Below are positions 4,028-49,869 of a stretch of DNA of 64,000 nt, in pieces. Source of the DNA: Melioribacteraceae bacterium (GTDB lineage: Bacteria; Bacteroidota; Ignavibacteria; Ignavibacteriales; Melioribacteraceae); assembly GCA_030584085.1 (NCBI GenBank), contig CP129490.1, forward strand, positions 248,001 to 312,000, written 5' to 3'. Position numbers and translations under genes: made by a program. The notes under the pieces were generated by a model, which made no database searches, had not been told where the DNA came from, and was given only the letters and a program-made list of their open reading frames with translations. The first letter of the stretch is position 1, and each line of letters begins with the position of its first letter.

Positions 4028-6721
4028 ATGTTTAAGAAGACGACATTTCTGGTTTTATGTTTAATACTGCCTTCTTTATTTTTTGCTCAAACATCAAAAG
4101 AACTCGATCTAAAACTAATTAAACAAACTCTCCCCTTCGAATTATCATCGTTTCGTTCTGAATATAATCCTCGTGTTGCATTGGCTTTAAGTGGCGGCGG
4201 TGCGCGTGGAATTGCTCAACTTGGTGTGTTAAAAGCTCTTACTGAATCCGGTATTGAATTCGACCAAATTATAGGAACGAGTATGGGCAGTATTGTGGGT
4301 GGATTATATGCAGCAGGTTATTCACTCGATGAACTCGATTCGCTTGTTATAACTGCCCCATGGATAGATTTTTTCTCGTTAGAAGAAACTAATAGAAGAG
4401 AACTTTTCTTGGATCAAAAAGTAACTGAAGATAAAGCTATTTTTGCAATCAGATTGGATGGTTTTGAACCGGTTATTCCCACCGCAATTAATACAGGTCA
4501 ACGTGTTTCAAATTATCTTAATTTATTAAGTCTAAATGCTCCGTTGAATACAGTTTACAACTTTGATGAGTTTTTATATCCATTTAAAGCAGTTAGTACA
4601 AATCTTATAACAGGGGAACCACATGTGTTGAGTAAGGGAACACTCGGCGCTGCGATGAGAGCGAGTTCAAGTGTATCTTTAGTATTGGAACCGGTCCGGG
4701 TTGATAGTTTAATTTTGGTTGATGGTGGTTTAGTGGCAAATGTACCGGTCGAAATTGCTTCACAAACTAATGCCGATTATATAGTCGCTGTTGATGTAAC
4801 AAGTCCATTAAGAACTTCGGAAGAACTTAAGTATCCTTGGGAAATTGCCGATCAATTGGTCAGTATTCCGATGAGATTAATTAATGATGAACATCTAAAA
4901 AATGCTGATGTTATAATTCGTCCTGATATTAATCATCGGAAGAACAATGATTTTACCGAATTAAGAAAGTTGATAGATTCCGGTTATCAATCATCCAGAG
5001 AATCGACAAATATATTAAAAGAAAATATAGAATCACTCACTCTCTCAAAAATCGATATTGATGAAGTGCTTTACTCTAATTTGGAGATTGTTTGTGAAAA
5101 TGTCGATTTAAAAAATTACTTAGATGAACAAATAATTGATGGACAAAACATTTCCGAAAAGGAATTAATTAAAATTATTATAAGCTATCCTGCTCTTGAT
5201 GACTTCAAATCACTCTCGGCAGAAATTGATTCGTTATCATCTAAGCTCATAATAAGTTTTGAAGTGAATCCGGTTGTTGAGAATATTATTATTTCCGGAG
5301 CCAAATTAATAGATGCAGATTCGGTTGTTGCAAAGTCTATGAATTTACGTGGTAAACCGTTCAACAGTAAAAAAATTCTCGAAACTTTTCTAAATATCCT
5401 TAGACATTATAGAACGGAAGGATACTCACTTGTTAGAATAGCAGATTATTTATTTGAGGATAACGTTCTTCGCATAAATGTTGATGAACAGACAATCGAT
5501 AGACTTATTGTTCACGGTAATGAAAAGACCAATGACGAAATTATATTAAGAGAATTACCCTTTAGTGAAGGCGATATCTTTGTGAGGGGAGAAGTAGAAC
5601 AAGGATTAACTAATTTAAGAAGTACCGGGCTATTCGAAAATATTGAACTAAGGATTGAACAAAAAGAAAATCAAAATATTTTGACGGTAGAAGTAAAAGA
5701 AAAGCCATCACTATTATTCCGATTCGGACTAAGATTGGATAATGAATATTTTACACAACCATCCTTCGACATAAGGGAGGAAAATTTACTAGGAACCGGA
5801 ACTGAACTTGGAGCAATTTTTACAGGTGGAATAAGAAATCAATTTGCCGCTCTTGAACTTCGTGCCAATAGAATTTTTAATACGTACTTTACTTATAAAA
5901 TTCAAGCATTTTATAATTCTATTGATATAAACACATATATGGACGACTCAACAAGCACTGAAAAGAGATTTGTAAGAACAAAACTTGGTGAGTATTCGCA
6001 GTCATATTTTGGCGGCTCAATCGGTATAGGAACTCAATTCCAAAAATTCGGCAATATAATTGTCGAAGCAAGATATCAACAAGATAATATAAAAGCGATT
6101 GAACAATTTGCATCGAGCGATGAATACACAACCAATATAGCAGCATTAAAATTTGAGCTGTCAATTGATTCACAAAACAGATATCCTTTCCCAACAGAGG
6201 GAATTTATTTTAACGGATTTTATGAAACAGCACAAACAGCTTTTGGCGGTGATATAGGCTATTCAAAACTTTACTTGGATTATAACAGTTATTTTGCTTT
6301 CACCGACGACCACAATTTAAACCTCAGATTGAAATTTGGTTATGGGGACGAAACACTTCCGCTAAGCCAGCAATTTTCCTTCGGCGGACAAAATTCATTT
6401 TTTGGTTATCGTGAATATGAATATCGAGGCAGACAAATATTAATTTCATCGCTGGAATACCGTTATAAGCTTCCGGTTAAATTTTTCTTCGATACATACT
6501 TTAAAGCAAGGTATGATCTTGGGTCAATATGGGCGCAACAAGAAAATATACGGTTTAAAGATTTACGCCATGGAATTGGCGGCACAATTGCTATTGATAC
6601 TCCGATTGGACCGGCGGAGTTTTCAGTTGGAAGAAGTTTTCTAATTAAAAATGCTCTTCCTAAAAATGTATTAAGCTGGGGAGAAACACATTTCTATTTT
6701 ACGATTGGTTATTACTACTAA
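4028..6721 (+). CDS. Patatin-like phospholipase with POTRA and outer-membrane barrel (PlpD/FplA type)
   Basis: The 897-residue protein begins with a signal peptide ending near FFAQ (residue 21). The patatin domain shows the oxyanion-hole motif SGGGARG (55-61), the nucleophile elbow GTSMG with Ser85, and the catalytic DGG with Asp232. POTRA-like repeats follow (about 410-555), with a C-terminal BamA-type 16-strand barrel ending in FTIGYYY. The family is a type Vd autotransporter. It is expected to hydrolyse phospholipids at or outside the outer membrane. Its stop codon touches the stop of the convergent gene at 6722. Confidence 0.9.
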   Translation: MFKKTTFLVLCLILPSLFFAQTSKELDLKLIKQTLPFELSSFRSEYNPRVALALSGGGARGIAQLGVLKALTESGIEFDQIIGTSMGSIVGGLYAAGYSLDELDSLVITAPWIDFFSLEETNRRELFLDQKVTEDKAIFAIRLDGFEPVIPTAINTGQRVSNYLNLLSLNAPLNTVYNFDEFLYPFKAVSTNLITGEPHVLSKGTLGAAMRASSSVSLVLEPVRVDSLILVDGGLVANVPVEIASQTNADYIVAVDVTSPLRTSEELKYPWEIADQLVSIPMRLINDEHLKNADVIIRPDINHRKNNDFTELRKLIDSGYQSSRESTNILKENIESLTLSKIDIDEVLYSNLEIVCENVDLKNYLDEQIIDGQNISEKELIKIIISYPALDDFKSLSAEIDSLSSKLIISFEVNPVVENIIISGAKLIDADSVVAKSMNLRGKPFNSKKILETFLNILRHYRTEGYSLVRIADYLFEDNVLRINVDEQTIDRLIVHGNEKTNDEIILRELPFSEGDIFVRGEVEQGLTNLRSTGLFENIELRIEQKENQNILTVEVKEKPSLLFRFGLRLDNEYFTQPSFDIREENLLGTGTELGAIFTGGIRNQFAALELRANRIFNTYFTYKIQAFYNSIDINTYMDDSTSTEKRFVRTKLGEYSQSYFGGSIGIGTQFQKFGNIIVEARYQQDNIKAIEQFASSDEYTTNIAALKFELSIDSQNRYPFPTEGIYFNGFYETAQTAFGGDIGYSKLYLDYNSYFAFTDDHNLNLRLKFGYGDETLPLSQQFSFGGQNSFFGYREYEYRGRQILISSLEYRYKLPVKFFFDTYFKARYDLGSIWAQQENIRFKDLRHGIGGTIAIDTPIGPAEFSVGRSFLIKNALPKNVLSWGETHFYFTIGYYY

Positions 6722-43648: not shown

Positions 43649-44683
43649 ATGATTAAGAGAATCTTCATCCTTCTCACTTTTTGCATTTCACTTTTTACTT
43701 CATTAAACGCTCAAACTGTAATCGGTAAATATGCAGGTGAATTTTTGGCAATAGGTGTCGGCGGACGAGCACTCGGAATGGGCGGCGCGCATACCGCAAT
43801 TGTTAATGATGTTACCGCTGGTTATTGGAATCCCGCCGGACTTGCCAGAATTGATTATCCGCAAATTGCACTTATGCATGAAGAACATTTTGGTGATCTT
43901 GTAAATTATAATTACGGTGCGGTTGCAATTCCATACGGAACGGATATGACATTCGGATTGAGTGTTATTCGTCTTGGTGTTGACGGAATTCCCGATACAC
44001 GCGATGCACTTTATGACGCAAACGGTGATGGAATTCTGGATATAAATACCGATCGACTTGATTATTCGAAAATAACAGAATTCAACAATACCGATTGGGC
44101 ATTTTATCTTTCATTTGCAAAGCGCCATTCAGAAAATTTCTATTGGGGTGCGAACGTTAAAGTTATTCGCAGAGATTTAGCGGAATTCAGTGCTACAGGT
44201 GTTGGCTTTGATGTCGGCGCAGTTTATATGCCGATGGAAGATCTTTATCTCGGTGCAACAATTCAAGATGTAACAACAACATTAGTTGCATGGAGTACTG
44301 GGCGAAATGAATTGATTTCACCGACCGCAAAAGTTGGTGCCGCTTATGCATTCCATATTTTAGGCGGAAGAGTAATGCCGGTTCTCGATCTTGATATTCG
44401 TTTTGAAGGAAGAGATTACGCGTCATATTTTAACATTGGTCCGGTAAGTTTTGATTCGCACTTTGGTGTTGAATATACCTACGATAATCTGTTCTCGGTT
44501 AGAGCCGGTTATAACGACGTTAAACAATTTACAATAGGTGCGGGAATAAAACTGCCTAAACTTTATATCGACTATTCATTCGCAAGAATGAGTCAATCCG
44601 AAAATGAGAGATTGCCCGACACACATAGAATCTCGTTAATGTTATCTCTCGAAGAGCCGAAGTTTATGAGAGACATAAATTAA
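43649..44683 (+). CDS. PorV/PorQ family outer-membrane protein
   Basis: The 344-residue protein has a signal peptide ending at LNAQT and the family opening GEFLAIGVGGRALGMGGAHT followed by AGYWNPAGLA. It is a FadL-like barrel. PorV-type proteins serve type IX secretion in Bacteroidetes, but many family members in Ignavibacteria are not near secretion genes, and no other Por gene lies in this window. AAGGAAA precedes ATG. Confidence 0.87.
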   Translation: MIKRIFILLTFCISLFTSLNAQTVIGKYAGEFLAIGVGGRALGMGGAHTAIVNDVTAGYWNPAGLARIDYPQIALMHEEHFGDLVNYNYGAVAIPYGTDMTFGLSVIRLGVDGIPDTRDALYDANGDGILDINTDRLDYSKITEFNNTDWAFYLSFAKRHSENFYWGANVKVIRRDLAEFSATGVGFDVGAVYMPMEDLYLGATIQDVTTTLVAWSTGRNELISPTAKVGAAYAFHILGGRVMPVLDLDIRFEGRDYASYFNIGPVSFDSHFGVEYTYDNLFSVRAGYNDVKQFTIGAGIKLPKLYIDYSFARMSQSENERLPDTHRISLMLSLEEPKFMRDIN

Positions 44684-44688
44684 TTTAC

Positions 44689-44716
44689 GTAGAGACTTGA
44701 TTAATCAAGTCTCTAC
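44689..44716. repeat. Perfect 28-nt palindrome, GTAGAGAC type (copy 1)
   Basis: GTAGAGACTTGATT is followed directly by its exact complement. The same 28 bases recur at 47637, and at 48458 with an insertion. It begins five bases after the stop of the PorV/PorQ gene. Confidence 0.95.
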
Positions 44717-44738
44717 AATAAATAAAAATTATTAAATT

Positions 44739-44764
44739 AAGGGAGAGTTATTCTCCCTTTTTTT
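44739..44764 (+). terminator. Intrinsic terminator before the lipoprotein gene
   Basis: AAGGGAGA (44739-44746) pairs with TCTCCCTT (44752-44759) across a five-base loop and is followed by a T-run. The T-run ends 12 bases before the TTG start at 44777. Confidence 0.88.
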
Positions 44765-44776
44765 ATTGGTGTTGAT

Positions 44777-45334
44777 TTGAACAAGATTAAATTAATATCA
44801 GCAATATTATTAACTGCATTTTGGTTTTCCTGCTCGGGACCGGCATCGTTTTATAACTTTGATACACCCCTCTCAAATGAGTTAACTTTTTCTCAAACTA
44901 CTGAACTTAAAGTAAATATTCCTAAAGGTTGGTTTACCGCGGAGGATAACAAAGACAGCAAAATTGATCTGTGGTTAATTGAGGAAAATTATTCTGCCTC
45001 CATTTCATTCATCCGAATTCACATTGATCAAGAAATGAAGAAAAGTAGAACAGAAAATTCACTAAACAGAGTGAAAGAATTTTCTTTACTTAATAACAAA
45101 TTGGCACACAGAAATAATTTTATCGATTTACTGAAAACCGAAACTTTTGAACTTAACGGTAGAGAATTTAATGCTTATCAATTTGCCGGATCAAATTACC
45201 GTTACCGTGTTGTGGTTTTCGGTTATAAAGGAAATTACTACGAGTGTGTTTCGGCAATAAAACCTGGTTTAACTGAAGCAGATTTAATAAATATATATTC
45301 TATCCAAAATTCCGTGCTGGCATCAATTAAATAA
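44777..45334 (+). CDS. Hypothetical lipoprotein
   Basis: The 185-residue protein starts with TTG and has a lipoprotein signal ending at FWFSCSGP (Cys19). The mature part (TELKVNIPKGWFTAEDNKDS, later REFNAYQFAGSNYRYRVVVF) has a beta-rich pattern similar in outline to PsbP-like or DUF1795 folds that bind at membranes; this is only an impression. It comes directly before the ECF sigma gene and may be part of the same cassette. Confidence 0.65.
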   Translation: MNKIKLISAILLTAFWFSCSGPASFYNFDTPLSNELTFSQTTELKVNIPKGWFTAEDNKDSKIDLWLIEENYSASISFIRIHIDQEMKKSRTENSLNRVKEFSLLNNKLAHRNNFIDLLKTETFELNGREFNAYQFAGSNYRYRVVVFGYKGNYYECVSAIKPGLTEADLINIYSIQNSVLASIK

Positions 45335-45387
45335 TTATTTTTAGGCAACTTTTCTTAAACAAACACATCTTTAATAGAAAAGAAAAA

Positions 45388-45909
45388 TTGAAGCATTCGC
45401 CGGCTGAAATATTAGAGTTTACTATTACATACAATCAGTTCAAGGGATATATCTACAATTACATATCCAAAATGCTGAACGATAAAGAAATGTGTTTTGA
45501 TGTTGTTCAATCTGTGTTCCTTAAATTCTTTGAAAATTTTCATCTGATAAAGAATAAAGAAAGTACAAAATCATGGTTGTTTACAACCGCAAGAAATGAA
45601 GTTTTTTCAATTTATAGAAAGAAGAAAGTACGAAAGAATGTTTTCACGTTTGAAGATGAAGAAGAATTAAGCAGTAACGAAGATAATTTTTCGGAAGAAA
45701 TTGAAATGAAAGAAATAAAAGAACTTCTTCAAATAGAACTTGATGATTTACCCGAAGAACAAAAAGAAATTTATGTCTTAAAAGAATACGGCGGATTAAG
45801 TTATAAAGAAATCGCGGAAACTCTTGGCATTGAAGAAGACTTGGTTAAAAGTCGTTTATATAAAACACGACAAAAACTTATAAAAAGATTATCCAAAGTT
45901 TTAAAGTAA
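45388..45909 (+). CDS. ECF-type RNA polymerase sigma factor
   Basis: The 173-residue protein starts with TTG at 45388. Region 2 is FDVVQSVFLKFFENFHLIKN with STKSWLFTTARNEVFSIYRKKK; region 4 is LPEEQKEIYVLKEYGGLSYK followed by EIAETLGIEEDLVKSRLYKT. Only sigma-2 and sigma-4 domains are present. The gene is followed after nine bases by a membrane protein gene that should encode its anti-sigma factor. Confidence 0.93.
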   Translation: MKHSPAEILEFTITYNQFKGYIYNYISKMLNDKEMCFDVVQSVFLKFFENFHLIKNKESTKSWLFTTARNEVFSIYRKKKVRKNVFTFEDEEELSSNEDNFSEEIEMKEIKELLQIELDDLPEEQKEIYVLKEYGGLSYKEIAETLGIEEDLVKSRLYKTRQKLIKRLSKVLK

Positions 45910-45918
45910 AGGTGAATA

Positions 45919-46389
45919 ATGACAACCGACAAGGTAATAGTATTGATAAATGAGTTCATTGACGGTGAACTCCCCAAAGAAAAAGAAAACGTTTTGTTTA
46001 CTGAGCTTGGCATAAATGAAATCGCGCGTGAATATTTCAAAAAAATTAACTCACTTAAAATAGTTACAATGAATCAAACGGAAACTTTCCCGAATGAGTT
46101 GGACAAGAAGATTCTGACTAAAATGCAATCCGTTCAATCGGTACCATTCATTTCAAAAATTAAAAGTGGTGCAGTCTCATATATAAGTTATGCATTATTG
46201 CTGATTGCACTTTTAACCGGTTACTACATTTATGAAGACGCGAATATTTCTAAGCAGCAGCTTGAACTTGCTAAGACCAGAATTGAGCAGCAAGATAATT
46301 TGTTGAAAGTGATTTTTACAAATCAACTCGCACCAATTACTGTTAAGCCCGAATATGAAAATGAAATTATAATAGAAGCTAGAATGTGA
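45919..46389 (+). CDS. Putative membrane anti-sigma factor
   Basis: The 156-residue protein has a cytosolic N-terminal part (VIVLINEFIDGELPKEKENV, residues 7-26) resembling the zinc-free anti-sigma helix bundle. It also has one transmembrane helix (about 86-105, SYISYALLLIALLTGYYIY) and a short periplasmic coiled coil. No HxxxCxxC motif is visible. AAGGTG precedes ATG. The position after an ECF sigma gene is the main evidence for function. Confidence 0.78.
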   Translation: MTTDKVIVLINEFIDGELPKEKENVLFTELGINEIAREYFKKINSLKIVTMNQTETFPNELDKKILTKMQSVQSVPFISKIKSGAVSYISYALLLIALLTGYYIYEDANISKQQLELAKTRIEQQDNLLKVIFTNQLAPITVKPEYENEIIIEARM

Positions 46390-46396
46390 GGTAGTT

Positions 46397-47230
46397 ATGA
46401 AAAAAATGTTACTAATATTTATCGCGGTTTTTGTTTTTGGTTGTACTGAAAAAAGTGACGGTGTGAAAATAATCGATAATTATGACGAAGAATATTTAAC
46501 GGAAAAACAAGTTGATAACGAAGCGGGAACCGAAGAAGAACTCAAGTTAGTAATGGAAGATATCAAACAAATAGTCCACGATGAATATTCTAAACTAAAC
46601 TCACCGATCAAAGCTGTTTTTAATTATAGACTTTACATTAATGAGGAAGGAAGAGTTGATGGCATTAAACAATTGCCGATCTCGGAAAAATATTCAACAG
46701 AAGACGGCAGTTATAAATTAATTGCTAAGGAATTATTATTAAAAGAGTTTGCAGACGCAGCCAAGAGTTGGAAGTTTACTGCCGCAACAAAGGAAAACAA
46801 TCCAGTAAAATTTCGTGGTGATCTTGAATTAATCTTAACGGTAGATGAAACCGGAACTATTAAAGAAGAAATTCCATCACTTAAGTCATTGGGCAATGTG
46901 TTATCGAAACTGAAATTCACAGATGATGATATTTACTTTGTTGTTGTAGAAGAACAGCCTGAACCTATTGGCGGGTTAATGGCAATTCAAGGAAAAATAG
47001 TTTATCCGAAAAAAGCAAAGGAAGCCGGTATTCAAGGCAGAGTTTTTGTAAAAGCATTCATAAACGAAGAAGGTATTGTTGATAAAGTAGAACTTCTAAA
47101 AGGATTTGATCCCGAATGTGATTCTGTTGCAATGAATGCAATTAAGCAGACAAAATTTACATCACCAAAACAAAGGGGAGAACCTGTTAAAGTGCAGGTT
47201 GCAATTCCCATCGTATTTAAATTACAATAA
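46397..47230 (+). CDS. TonB-domain lipoprotein
   Basis: The 277-residue protein has a lipoprotein signal ending at FVFGCTEK (Cys16), a variable middle domain, and a C-terminal TonB domain: PEPIGGLMAIQGKIVYPKKA, IQGRVFVKAFINEEG, AIKQTKFTSPKQRG. An N-terminal lipid anchor instead of a transmembrane helix is unusual for an energy transducer. A second TonB-domain protein follows 10 bp later. GAGGTAG precedes ATG. Confidence 0.85.
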   Translation: MKKMLLIFIAVFVFGCTEKSDGVKIIDNYDEEYLTEKQVDNEAGTEEELKLVMEDIKQIVHDEYSKLNSPIKAVFNYRLYINEEGRVDGIKQLPISEKYSTEDGSYKLIAKELLLKEFADAAKSWKFTAATKENNPVKFRGDLELILTVDETGTIKEEIPSLKSLGNVLSKLKFTDDDIYFVVVEEQPEPIGGLMAIQGKIVYPKKAKEAGIQGRVFVKAFINEEGIVDKVELLKGFDPECDSVAMNAIKQTKFTSPKQRGEPVKVQVAIPIVFKLQ

Positions 47231-47240
47231 GGGGGTAGTT

Positions 47241-47630
47241 ATGAAAAATGTTGTTGCGAACAGTTTCAGATTTATAATTATTTTATCATTCATTCTCATA
47301 GGAACACAAACTCAAAGTTTTGCACAAGCGAATGAATATGTGACAGATGCGGAAGAAATGCCTCAACCAATCGGGGGATTGGAAGCTATCATGAAGAATG
47401 TTGTCTATCCGAAAGAAGCAAAGGTAAATAATATTCAAGGTAAAGTTTTGGTAGAAGCTTTTATTGATGCAAGCGGGAATGTTGTTGAAGTAAAAATCAA
47501 AGAAGGAGTTGAAGCATTAAATAATGCTGCTCAAACTGCAGTGAAGAAAACTAAATTTACTCCGGCAAAAGTGAAAGGAAAAGCAGTTAAATCAAAGATT
47601 ATAATTCCAATCATGTTTAAGCTAAGTTAA
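47241..47630 (+). CDS. Short TonB-domain protein
   Basis: From ATG 47241 (preceded by GGGGG) the protein is 130 residues. A signal peptide or anchor (FRFIIILSFILIGTQTQSFA) is followed directly by a TonB domain, PQPIGGLEAIMKNVVYPKEA to KFTPAKVKGKAVKSKIIIPI. It is a paralogue of the C-terminal domain of the preceding protein. It lacks the proline-rich spacer that lets TonB span the periplasm, so it may bind within the periplasm. The frame up to 47136 overlaps the previous gene and is not used. Confidence 0.85.
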   Translation: MKNVVANSFRFIIILSFILIGTQTQSFAQANEYVTDAEEMPQPIGGLEAIMKNVVYPKEAKVNNIQGKVLVEAFIDASGNVVEVKIKEGVEALNNAAQTAVKKTKFTPAKVKGKAVKSKIIIPIMFKLS

Positions 47631-47636
47631 ATGAAT

Positions 47637-47690
47637 GTAGAGACTTGATTAATCAAGTCTCTACAAAACATTTCACAAACTCAGTATATC
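47637..47690. repeat. Direct repeat, left copy: palindrome plus rseP-end sequence
   Basis: Bases 47637-47664 are the perfect GTAGAGAC palindrome (copy 2). Bases 47665-47690 read AAAACATTTCACAAACTCAG followed by TATATC. That tail matches 48506-48531 at 25 of 26 positions, where it covers the last codons of rseP. The pair of 54-nt repeats brackets the RelE/Xre module. Confidence 0.92.
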
Positions 47691-47753
47691 ACACCCATAA
47701 TAACCACGTTCAACCAAAATTCCGAATTGAATTTAATTGTAATGGATTACAAC

Positions 47754-47831
47754 TTTTGACAGAATATTAAAGGAGTTTTTTTGAACGAATTTTGTGTCAA
47801 AGTGATTTTGTTGTATGTAACATATTTGTTA
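47754..47831. promoter_or_regulatory. Probable promoter/operator of the RelE/Xre module
   Basis: TTTGACA (47755-47761), a good -35-like sequence, and TGTCAAA (47795-47801) form 7-bp inverted arms. Closer to the gene, TAACA (47818-47822) and TGTTA (47827-47831) form a dyad with a TATT spacer, 10 bases before the GTG start. Xre-type antitoxins commonly bind such palindromes. Confidence 0.4.
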
Positions 47832-47841
47832 TATTCCGATT

Positions 47842-48189
47842 GTGAAGTGGAGCATTGAATATTATAGTGAAGATATTCAAAAAAAAATTCTTTCTTTGCC
47901 TTCGGGGTTATTAGCACGGTACTTAAGATTAACAGACATAATGCTGGAATTTGGCTCTCATTTGGGGATGCCTCATACAAAGTTTTTGGAGGATGGTTTA
48001 ATAGAACTTAGGGTAAAAGGTAAAGAGGGAATTGCGCGGATATTCTACTGTACATTAATTGAAAAGCGAATTATAATGTTGCATTCATTTATTAAAAAAT
48101 CAAATAAAACACCAAAGAAAGAAATACAAATAGCCAGAGGAAGAATGAAAGAGGTGATAAAAAATGACGCACGAAGAACTAAAAAATAA
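47842..48189 (+). CDS. RelE/HigB-like toxin (phage Gp49-like family)
   Basis: The 115-residue basic protein starts with GTG. WSIEYYSEDIQKKILSLP, LGMPHTKFLEDGLIELRVK and GIARIFYCTLIEKRIIMLHS followed by FIKKSNKTP match the RelE/ParE-superfamily Gp49-like toxins, which are ribosome-dependent mRNA interferases. The toxin gene precedes and overlaps the Xre antitoxin gene by 26 bp, the order of HigBA systems. Confidence 0.9.
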   Translation: MKWSIEYYSEDIQKKILSLPSGLLARYLRLTDIMLEFGSHLGMPHTKFLEDGLIELRVKGKEGIARIFYCTLIEKRIIMLHSFIKKSNKTPKKEIQIARGRMKEVIKNDARRTKK

Positions 48190-48451
48190 AGCACTTAAAA
48201 AAGCTTCGGTAAAAAAAGAATATGATAAACTTGAGCCGGAATTTACTTTGTTGAGAGAAATGCTTCGAGCAAGGAATAGAGCCGGTCTTAGTCAAGCACA
48301 AGTAGCTCAAAAAATGGGGACGAAATCTACTGCAATAACAAGGCTAGAATCATCTCTAAGCTCCGGAAAACATTCTCCGTCACTGGCAACAATCAAAAAA
48401 TATTTAGAAGCATTAGATTGTCGTTTGGAAATTAAAATTACACAAAACTAA
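48164..48451 (+). CDS. Xre-family antitoxin (HigA-like)
   Basis: The 95-residue protein has an HTH_3 domain: ARNRAGLSQAQVAQKMGTKS followed by TAITRLESSLSSGKHSPSLA and a C-terminal helix YLEALDCRLEIKI. It should bind the toxin and the operator upstream. Its start lies 26 bases inside the toxin gene and has a strong GAGGTGAT ribosome-binding site. Confidence 0.92.
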   Translation: MTHEELKNKALKKASVKKEYDKLEPEFTLLREMLRARNRAGLSQAQVAQKMGTKSTAITRLESSLSSGKHSPSLATIKKYLEALDCRLEIKITQN

Positions 48452-48457
48452 AATTCA

Positions 48458-48531
48458 GTAGAGACTTGATCACGCCGGAGGCGGACAGGTTAATCAAGTC
48501 TCTACAAAACATTTCACAAACTCATTATATC
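48458..48531. repeat. Direct repeat, right copy, with 20-nt insertion in the palindrome
   Basis: The palindrome arms GTAGAGACTTGAT (48458-48470) and TAATCAAGTCTCTAC (48491-48505) are intact, but CACGCCGGAGGCGGACAGGT is inserted at the centre. The tail 48506-48531 is the same 26-nt sequence as in the left copy with one change. It runs into the 3' end of rseP, whose stop codon is at 48514-48516. Confidence 0.92.
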
Positions 48532-49869
48532 GCTGTAAATAATAAATGCCATCAACATAAGTAAAACAATAAATCCAAAATTTTGAATTGCGATTTTAAT
48601 TTTAACCGGTAGTTCTTTTCTCATTATTCCTTCGATAATAATTATAACAAAATGACCTCCGTCAAGAACCGGGAAGGGAAGGAAATTTAATATTGCCAAA
48701 CTCAAGCTCAACATTGCTAAAAAGTATAAGAAGGAAATAATTCCGGTATCCGCACTTCTTGCAGCAAATTGTGCAATCTTAACCGGTCCGCCAAATACTT
48801 GATCGAATTGGACATCACCGACTATTACATTCTTGAACATCGAAAAAGTTAATGCAGTTATTTGAGTAATATTCTCGAAGCTTTGAAACAATGAACCGAA
48901 GAAGCCATAATTCTCGAACTTTATTGGGCCTGTATAAACGTCTGTAATATAGATTCCTATCTTACCGTCATAACCAGATTTTACTGTTGTAGTTACAGTA
49001 TCTTCATCTCGCAAAAGAACAAGTGATATTTCTTTTTCCGGATTAGAAGAAATAATGCGTATTGCTTCATGGCTGTTGTTCAGTTTCATTCCGTTCATTT
49101 CGAGGAAAATATCGCCGGCTTGAATACCGGCGGCTTCTGCCGGAGAATTTTTCATAATTTCCGATATGTAAGGCTGAGTGTGACCGAAAGGAATCATAAA
49201 ACTTTTCTGAGCATTTTCGGCTATTAATTCTTTCTGTATTTTGAATGAAACTTCTTCTCCGCCTCTTAATACAGTTACGTTGACATCTTTACCAATATTA
49301 TCTATTAAGAGATTGTTAACGATATCATCCCAATTCTCGGTTGTTTTTCCATTAATAGATAATATTTTATCGTTTGTTTCGAAACCGGCTTGTGCGGCAG
49401 GTGTATTTTCTTCAACATAACCAAGATCGGTTGTGTCGATTATTTGTTTACCTTGAAAGAAATTAATTCCCCATAAAATGAGAATTGTCAATGTAAGGTT
49501 CATCATAACACCGGCAGAGATTACAAAGAGTTTTTTATAAGTTGGCTTAGCTCTGAATTCATAGTCCTTCGGTTCTGATTTGGCAAATTCCGTATCAAAA
49601 CTTTCATCGATCATGCCTGATATTTTTACATATCCGCCAAGTGGTAGAAGTGAAATTCTATAATCGGTATTCCCTTCTCCGTCAAAATCTTTTGGTAAAG
49701 GTCCGAATGTAAAACCGGTAATTTTGTTGTAACCTAGGATTCTTCTTCCGTATCCGATTGCAAATACCTCGGCTCTCATTCCGGACATTTTTGCTGCAAG
49801 GAAGTGTCCAAGTTCATGAACAAAAACCAAAATACCGATTGTTATAGCGAAATAAATTATATAGTCCAT
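48514..49869 (-). CDS. rseP: RIP metalloprotease RseP (site-2 protease)
   Basis: The 451-residue membrane protease has the zinc motif HELGH (His18, Glu19, His22) in its first helix and PVLDGGHFV with the third ligand near residue 400. Between them lie two PDZ domains (EENTPAAQAGFETNDKIL, KNSPAEAAGIQAGDIF). It cuts anti-sigma factors and signal-peptide remnants within the membrane, and it could process the anti-sigma factor encoded at 45919. It follows dxr by 11 bp, a conserved order. Confidence 0.96.
   Translation of the reverse strand: MDYIIYFAITIGILVFVHELGHFLAAKMSGMRAEVFAIGYGRRILGYNKITGFTFGPLPKDFDGEGNTDYRISLLPLGGYVKISGMIDESFDTEFAKSEPKDYEFRAKPTYKKLFVISAGVMMNLTLTILILWGINFFQGKQIIDTTDLGYVEENTPAAQAGFETNDKILSINGKTTENWDDIVNNLLIDNIGKDVNVTVLRGGEEVSFKIQKELIAENAQKSFMIPFGHTQPYISEIMKNSPAEAAGIQAGDIFLEMNGMKLNNSHEAIRIISSNPEKEISLVLLRDEDTVTTTVKSGYDGKIGIYITDVYTGPIKFENYGFFGSLFQSFENITQITALTFSMFKNVIVGDVQFDQVFGGPVKIAQFAARSADTGIISFLYFLAMLSLSLAILNFLPFPVLDGGHFVIIIIEGIMRKELPVKIKIAIQNFGFIVLLMLMAFIIYSDIMSL

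Follow-up and report, generated by a model that had tools for sequence, protein, structure and literature searches.

The nearest known case that was found for the system described here is VreA-VreI-VreR, the PUMA3 system of Pseudomonas aeruginosa. In the excerpts of PMC2729926, VreA is a mostly soluble protein without a barrel that contains an STN-type domain and a TolA/TonB-like domain. The STN-type domain is proposed to contact VreR and the TonB-like domain to contact outer-membrane partners. According to excerpts of a 2024 study, the signalling domain of the receptor FoxA binds the C-terminus of the anti-sigma factor FoxR without signal and protects it (PMC11637429). The present locus lies in a 64,000-nucleotide stretch of a Melioribacteraceae bacterium (the window; assembly GCA_030584085.1, contig CP129490.1, positions 248001-312000 of a 3.74 Mb genome in a single contig). 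It encodes an extracytoplasmic function (ECF) sigma factor (SIG), an anti-sigma factor (ANTI) and two TonB_C proteins (TonL and TonS).

Like VreA-VreI-VreR as described in PMC2729926, the locus combines an ECF sigma factor, an anti-sigma factor and a periplasmic partner without a barrel that has a TolA/TonB-like C-terminal domain. Unlike VreA, the partner is a lipoprotein with tandem TonB_C domains, and the anti-sigma tail is short with box-like strands. No STN family appears in the Pfam listings of TonL and TonS, so that a VreA-type pairing of STN with a TolA/TonB-like domain is missing at the level of sequence families, which does not establish its absence at the level of structure. The proposed binding of the anti-sigma C-terminus by a partner that guards it from proteolysis resembles FoxA-FoxR-FoxI, unlike which the partner here is not the signalling domain of an outer-membrane receptor (PMC11637429). 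Among the matches listed from the open-access literature (subscription papers mostly outside), no other paper described, to judge by title and beginning of abstract, TonB_C anti-sigma partners or TonB-box-like anti-sigma tails.

Belief and doubt are evenly balanced for the view that the locus is an autoregulated ECF sigma/anti-sigma switch whose periplasmic partner is a TonB_C lipoprotein and not an outer-membrane receptor. With the same middling confidence, and by analogy, we regard it as a receptor-less variant of cell-surface signalling in which the TonB_C domains would bind and shield the anti-sigma tail. Gene linkage, TonB_C folds, a tail motif tied to the linkage and a shared promoter are established below. 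The core features are as follows.

45345..45370, + strand: predicted sigma-dependent promoter GCAACTTT-N13-CATCT, from a motif pair enriched in sigma upstream regions
45388..45909, + strand: SIG, ECF sigma factor (Sigma70_r2 and Sigma70_r4_2)
45919..46389, + strand: ANTI, single-pass membrane anti-sigma factor with a periplasmic tail of ~50 residues (position, generic anti-sigma N-domain and column conservation)
46327..46350, + strand: ANTI tail motif M1, LAPITVKP in the window (family consensus LPxVEVxG)
46357..46386, + strand: ANTI tail motif M2, ENEIIIEARM, TonB-box-like (box score 9.9, shuffle P 0.013)
46397..47230, + strand: TonL, lipoprotein with two TonB_C domains (Pfam, AlphaFold2; N-half by profile)
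46529-46876 and 46946-47227, + strand: TonL domains, the first a degenerate TonB_C by profile and the second a clear TonB_C
47241..47630, + strand: TonS, signal peptide by eye and one TonB_C domain, no spacer

The first-pass annotation of this DNA had listed a lipoprotein gene (LIPO), SIG, ANTI and the two TonB genes in this order, and all five open reading frames (ORFs) are present as it described. SIG scored above the Pfam cut-offs for Sigma70_r2 (35.8 bits) and Sigma70_r4_2 (54.5 bits), and reached 100.2 bits for sigma70-ECF TIGR02937 (cut-off 42.9). It contains regions 2 and 4 only, as expected of an ECF sigma factor. ANTI (156 aa) has one hydrophobic segment by eye. It is not a FecR-type protein with a long periplasmic domain, as no FecR family was listed by Pfam at E<=1. 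The best named relative, judged by TonL, is Ignavibacteriales bacterium SURF_28 (best segment 98% identity).

TonL and TonS belong to the TonB_C family (PF03544), with 72.2 and 69.4 bits respectively (cut-off 24.6). TonL has the lipobox VFGC by eye. The listed TonS ORF starts at 47136, and the start that yields a signal peptide is 47241, giving 129 aa. Inspection by eye found neither the transmembrane anchor nor the Pro-rich spacer of an energy-transducing TonB in either protein, only a lipobox or a signal peptide and no spacer, in agreement with the earlier description of one protein as lipid-anchored and the other as lacking a spacer. A canonical TonB that has both features is encoded elsewhere in the genome, as is a cluster resembling ExbB-ExbD-TonB (ExbD by eye). 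The AlphaFold2 model of TonL (10 sequences) had a mean predicted local distance difference test score (pLDDT) of 75.7. Its C-domain matched TonB C-terminal domains with Z up to 11.6 and a root-mean-square deviation of 1.7 over 81 residues. This fold is shared with the TonB C-terminal domains in complex with receptors (2gsk BtuB, 2grx FhuA, 6i97 FoxA), unlike which the ligand proposed here is the anti-sigma tail. The N-half of TonL, on profile comparison, is a second, degenerate TonB_C domain. An iterated hidden Markov model (HMM) identified a TonB_C-like N-half in 73/80 partners, and the N-half profile (40) matched TonB_C of other genes (37) with a probability of 97.8 (E 1.1e-12), compared with <1% for four unrelated families. 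The modelled N-half runs strand-strand-helix-strand.

Relatives were counted in the order Ignavibacteriales. An anti-sigma match was present in 71/116 order genomes searched. Of the 85 order anti-sigma ORFs, 80 are followed immediately, on the same strand, by a TonB_C gene and three by another gene; two lie at the end of the stretch. The three exceptions are a split anti-sigma fragment (L165), a locus with one intervening gene (L175) and L195. The gene immediately upstream encodes a sigma factor in 75/85. These counts leave out L022, L025 and L026, which are near-copies of other loci, and loci without a called anti-sigma ORF such as L106, L110 and L174 (L174 has a profile match); L165 is counted twice among the 85, its anti-sigma gene being split by a stop.

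The conserved unit is smaller than the five-gene set of the first-pass annotation. A small TonB follows in 15/80 ANTI-TonB loci, LIPO-SIG-ANTI-TonB is contiguous in 15/80, and all five genes are contiguous in 7/80, the window among them, on which count a conserved five-gene unit was rejected. That annotation would have given up its reading over relatives whose TonB genes are unlinked to the sigma pair. Such genes do exist, beside LIPO in L025 (=L115), L026 (=L114) and L108, and in L024, yet linkage holds for 80/85 across the order. The genes beside LIPO in L025 and L026 are one small and one canonical TonB. A membrane-anchored TonB of ~230 aa stands at the cluster end in L025, L026 and L027, and the window has none there. 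L190 encodes at 4287-5528 a protein of 413 aa in which repeated short motifs precede two TonB_C domains, and no sigma gene was noticed in the stretch listed.

The motif M1 (LPxVEVxG) is found in most order anti-sigma tails, and M2 (NEIIIxA) in most of those. From residue 105 on, the most conserved ANTI columns (81 rows) were Q125 (4.77 bits) and the Pro of LPxVEV (4.27 bits), followed by Y at residue 111 (3.54 bits) and N at residue 134 (3.39 bits). The window ANTI departs from consensus at the LPxVEV Pro and at residues 111 and 134; its M1 is off consensus, yet passes the tail profile. This profile covers 9 residues and was trained on the order tails, with the pass threshold set at the 99th percentile of 1101 other C-termini. 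It was tested on 51 other anti-sigma factors from other orders of the class and from unlinked paralogues within the order. The profile with which these loci were initially located included the tail, and detection for the counts was restricted to residues 1-100. The profile passed 20/24 TonB-linked tails and 0/27 unlinked tails (Fisher p 1.4e-10, area under the curve 0.96) in a non-random class set, picked from profile hits by score, frame length and place and including several members of one genus. In the sigma tree, whose order rows had also trained the profile, 98 of the 126 rows were linked (94 with the motif) and 28 unlinked (0 with the motif). Motif-free unlinked rows include some that are nested among linked rows. 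The tree requires linkage to change 6 times and the motif 9 times. Its supported branches yield 4 independent pairs (all branches together 6), of which 3.7 agree on average and none ever disagrees. The association of motif and linkage is thus strong in counts, and the independent events are few.

The tail strands resemble a peptide gripped by TonB, which suggests that these domains keep the switch closed and do not serve to drive the uptake of nutrients. TonB boxes of receptors in this genome include LDEIVVTD, YNEIVVTG and LDQIVVSA, among others. With a profile of 19 receptor boxes, linked tails scored above unlinked tails in the class set (p 7e-4) and in the order (p 2.7e-6). This profile was rejected as sole proof, being too weak for individual tails.

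M2 may serve the second domain of TonL. All four one-domain partners of 130-160 aa (L143, L145, L158, L166) go with tails without M2 by eye, as do some two-domain partners, and nine partners without a lipobox, in one clade, keep M2. Labels for M2 and anchor were assigned by eye since a regular expression misread L143, L145 and L186; L187, being unclear, was not included. Co-evolution of M2 with the lipid anchor or the TonB_C number of the partner was rejected, with 2 independent pairs each and no significance; on supported branches the pairs went the same way 1.4 and 1.5 times on average and never the opposite way.

Several results weigh against the TonB_C domains as tail partners. Four linked tails miss the profile threshold, and a plain regular expression, written before the test tails were read, was a weaker discriminator (15/21 linked vs 2/25 unlinked tails with a sigma gene upstream). 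The independent-pairs test gave p 0.125, and motif and linkage are partly co-inherited. Taken singly, the tails are weak boxes: shuffle P<0.05 was reached by 5/24 class, 22/80 order and 1/27 unlinked tails, and the median box scores of linked tails (3.0 and 3.3) fall below 6.2, the 95th percentile of other C-termini. By eye labels, M2 is missing in 22/80 order tails, 12 with partners without a lipobox and 10 with partners that have one, and its link with partner type is not significant. The L024 gene is TonL-like, with a TonB_C domain 62% identical to that of TonL, and has no sigma pair in the stretch examined. A structure search with the TonL N-domain found no clear TonB match (best row DUF5043, Z 5.5), and ANTI has no Pfam family above cut-off.

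Motif enrichment points to a conserved promoter specific to the unit SIG-ANTI-TonL(-TonS), with the sequence GCAACWTT-N13-CATCT. The first-pass annotation had proposed a check for a sigma-dependent promoter, and one is predicted: GCAAC-N16-CATC occurs upstream of SIG in 35/80 loci, compared with 6-7 for the best pair in five shuffled sets. A looser form was found in 40/80 loci, at a distance of 43 to 83 nt (mostly ~50) ahead of the start, and the fixed-spacing form in 41/81 (L165 counted twice). The window copy lies 17 nt ahead of SIG. Promoters were found in 10/47 loci of the class set (7/21 linked and 3/26 unlinked).

The exact pattern has 3 matches in the window's own genome, before SIG, inside an ORF, and 31 nt before the gene of a 431-aa tetratricopeptide repeat (TPR) protein at 36 kb. 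Relatives of this protein at order sigma loci number 15 ORFs; this count was used since an HMM count of 22/83 may take in other TPR proteins. The gene lies between SIG and ANTI in several (L023, L089, L096, L097), and the TPR protein is likely a further member of the system. Proteins of ~430 aa with TPR occur in or by the sigma operon in L023, L089, L096, L097, L105 and L292, and the gene is unlinked in this genome.

Spacing was examined at 39 distinct sites out of 72 listed, those with sequence at hand, the 26-nt sites having been fetched on purpose. In this non-random set 15/21 sites at 26 nt were intergenic vs 0/18 at 25 or 27 nt, and promoters at those other spacings were rejected. Behind the 15 intergenic sites lie SIG (six labelled, and L320 by coordinates), the TPR gene (L292, L313, L339), a canonical TonB (L324), an RND-type (resistance-nodulation-division) transporter by eye (L342) and a 133-aa protein (L321); L338 and L350 have no gene within 200 nt. 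The site is 90 nt ahead of the TonB gene in L324 and 35 nt ahead of the transporter-like gene in L342, a genome of the same genus. In a fourth genome (L104) the TPR gene has a promoter site by coordinates. Allowing one mismatch gave 16 rows in the window's own genome, including 2 exact ones, and 3 with the reversed control. Three of the new sites are intergenic before a gene, L302 preceding a thioredoxin-like protein. In the same genome, L296 and L299 have GCAACTTT-N13-CGTCT upstream of two ORFs (491 and 435 aa) whose starts are signal-like, and these CGTCT sites may belong to the regulon of another ECF sigma factor.

The flanking features are listed next.

43649..44683, + strand: PorV/PorQ-family outer-membrane protein, partner gene of LIPO (NF033709 PorV_fam 137.5 bits, cut-off 90)
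44689..44716, no strand: palindrome copy 1, 28 nt, perfect, directly after the PorV stop codon
44739..44759, + strand: terminator-like hairpin between PorV and LIPO (hairpin scan)
44777..45334, + strand: LIPO, lipoprotein with a PsbP/DcrB-like fold (lipobox by eye, AlphaFold2, Foldseek)
47637..47664, no strand: palindrome copy 2, exact, past the stop codon of TonS; on the minus strand also terminator-like
48514..49869, - strand: RseP-type site-2 protease, Peptidase_M50 with PDZ, convergent neighbour

LIPO belongs to a separate PorV-LIPO pair outside the SIG unit. A LIPO match was found in 45/116 order genomes, with PorV at most two genes upstream in 42/48. The AlphaFold2 model (mean pLDDT 84.1) matched CyanoP (2lnj, Foldseek E 3.2e-7) and DcrB (6e8a, E 8.5e-4). 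PorV is probably outside the sigma operon. Because a hairpin precedes LIPO and the predicted promoter follows it, the transcription unit, as judged from spacing and promoter, is probably SIG-ANTI-TonL-TonS.

The first-pass annotation had placed the gene set between two 28-nt palindromes. Both copies are exact and none occurred in shuffles. They start 6-7 nt past the stop codons of PorV and TonS, and the gene pair that comes next has an interrupted copy (48458-48505) behind its stop. The genome has 4 exact sites, and 6 sites with both 8-nt arms. Since the copies trail stop codons and exact sites occur at four places in the genome, the palindromes look like gene-end elements and not unit borders; a role as borders of a mobile unit found no support, the family being scattered genome-wide. 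Five terminator-like sites were found in 44600-48600 (shuffles: mean 1.9, standard deviation 1.3). Directly after the operon, at 47842-48451, lie a Gp49-family (DUF891) gene and an HTH_3 gene, which look like a HigB/HigA-type toxin-antitoxin pair.

In the proposed mechanism ANTI would keep SIG at the membrane. The TonB_C domains of TonL would take the tail strand or strands by sheet addition, as TonB does with TonB boxes, and bound TonL would screen the tail from a site-1 protease in the way that the FoxA signalling domain acts on FoxR. RseB on RseA is presumably a second analogy for such shielding. We also assume a likeness to RpoE-RseA-RseB in the order sigma, anti-sigma, periplasmic partner, together with an RseP-type protease in the genome. 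RseB is not known to have a TonB fold. This order and the nearby RseP-type gene suggest release by proteolysis, and the neighbouring protease is a candidate for ANTI cleavage. The tail would become free if a competitor took up the TonB_C groove or if TonL were lost from its membrane, and the site-1 protease and RseP would then release SIG. SIG would then transcribe its own operon and the unlinked TPR gene from the shared promoter, and because its own operon is transcribed, more TonL would reset the switch. We infer tail binding and proteolysis of ANTI, and with them the sensing role for the sigma factor that had been suggested for the TonB domains.

A possible, though less probable, explanation is that the TonB_C proteins are merely envelope-maintenance effectors in the sigma regulon, and that the tail motif docks a protease or other partner or is a cleavage site. 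The TonB partners differ in length, anchoring and domain number, the TPR gene resembles an effector-kind member of the regulon, and an RseP-type gene lies within six genes of the anti-sigma gene in 30/83 loci (flanks of unequal length), all of which this explanation would accommodate. The split of the motif by linkage in the class set argues against it, though proteases would presumably serve anti-sigma factors generally. The shielding of the tail by TonL remains our preferred reading, as the TonB_C proteins go with the sigma pair and the motif goes with them.

We think it unlikely that the system senses the status of TonB itself, with the tail competing with receptors for canonical TonB, the Ton motor force pulling ANTI, and TonL and TonS acting as modulators or decoys. 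M2 (ENEIIIEA in the window) does look like the boxes of TonB-dependent receptors in the same genome, a Pro-rich TonB of 195-260 aa was detected by regular expression in the stretch of 10/83 loci, and the canonical TonB of L324 has the sigma promoter. Against this, the consistent partner is the TonL-type gene, and a Pro-rich TonB of that kind was not seen in the remaining 73 stretches.

Standard cell-surface signalling through an unlinked TonB-dependent receptor, with TonL only energising, is very improbable: the genome has 26 plug-domain matches (with 4 MotA/ExbB and 7 TonB_C matches), but TonL has a lipobox and neither transmembrane anchor nor Pro-rich spacer, and Pfam lists no STN or FecR family for ANTI (STN was not searched genome-wide, and receptors were not searched locus by locus in relatives). 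Profile searches of the window found no plug and no MotA/ExbB match (ExbD was not searched as a family), as had been stated of local receptor and ExbB genes, and hence no linked receptor with STN.

TonB_C proteins without membrane anchor and spacer recur in the group and match domain models for energy-transducing TonB. If some of them are anti-sigma partners, the name energy transducer misleads. On the same condition, a kind of receptor-less envelope signalling could be tested directly, for which a peptide of 10 residues and a domain of 90 would suffice. More tentatively, and against our expectation, TonB_C domains could act as periplasmic ligand-binding partners for anti-sigma factors of a widespread class whose tails mimic TonB boxes, free TonB boxes being sensed by competition. 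Such a system would gauge the quality of TonB-dependent transport, or the demand for it, without any receptor gene, responding to free boxes, for example those of unassembled or idle receptors.

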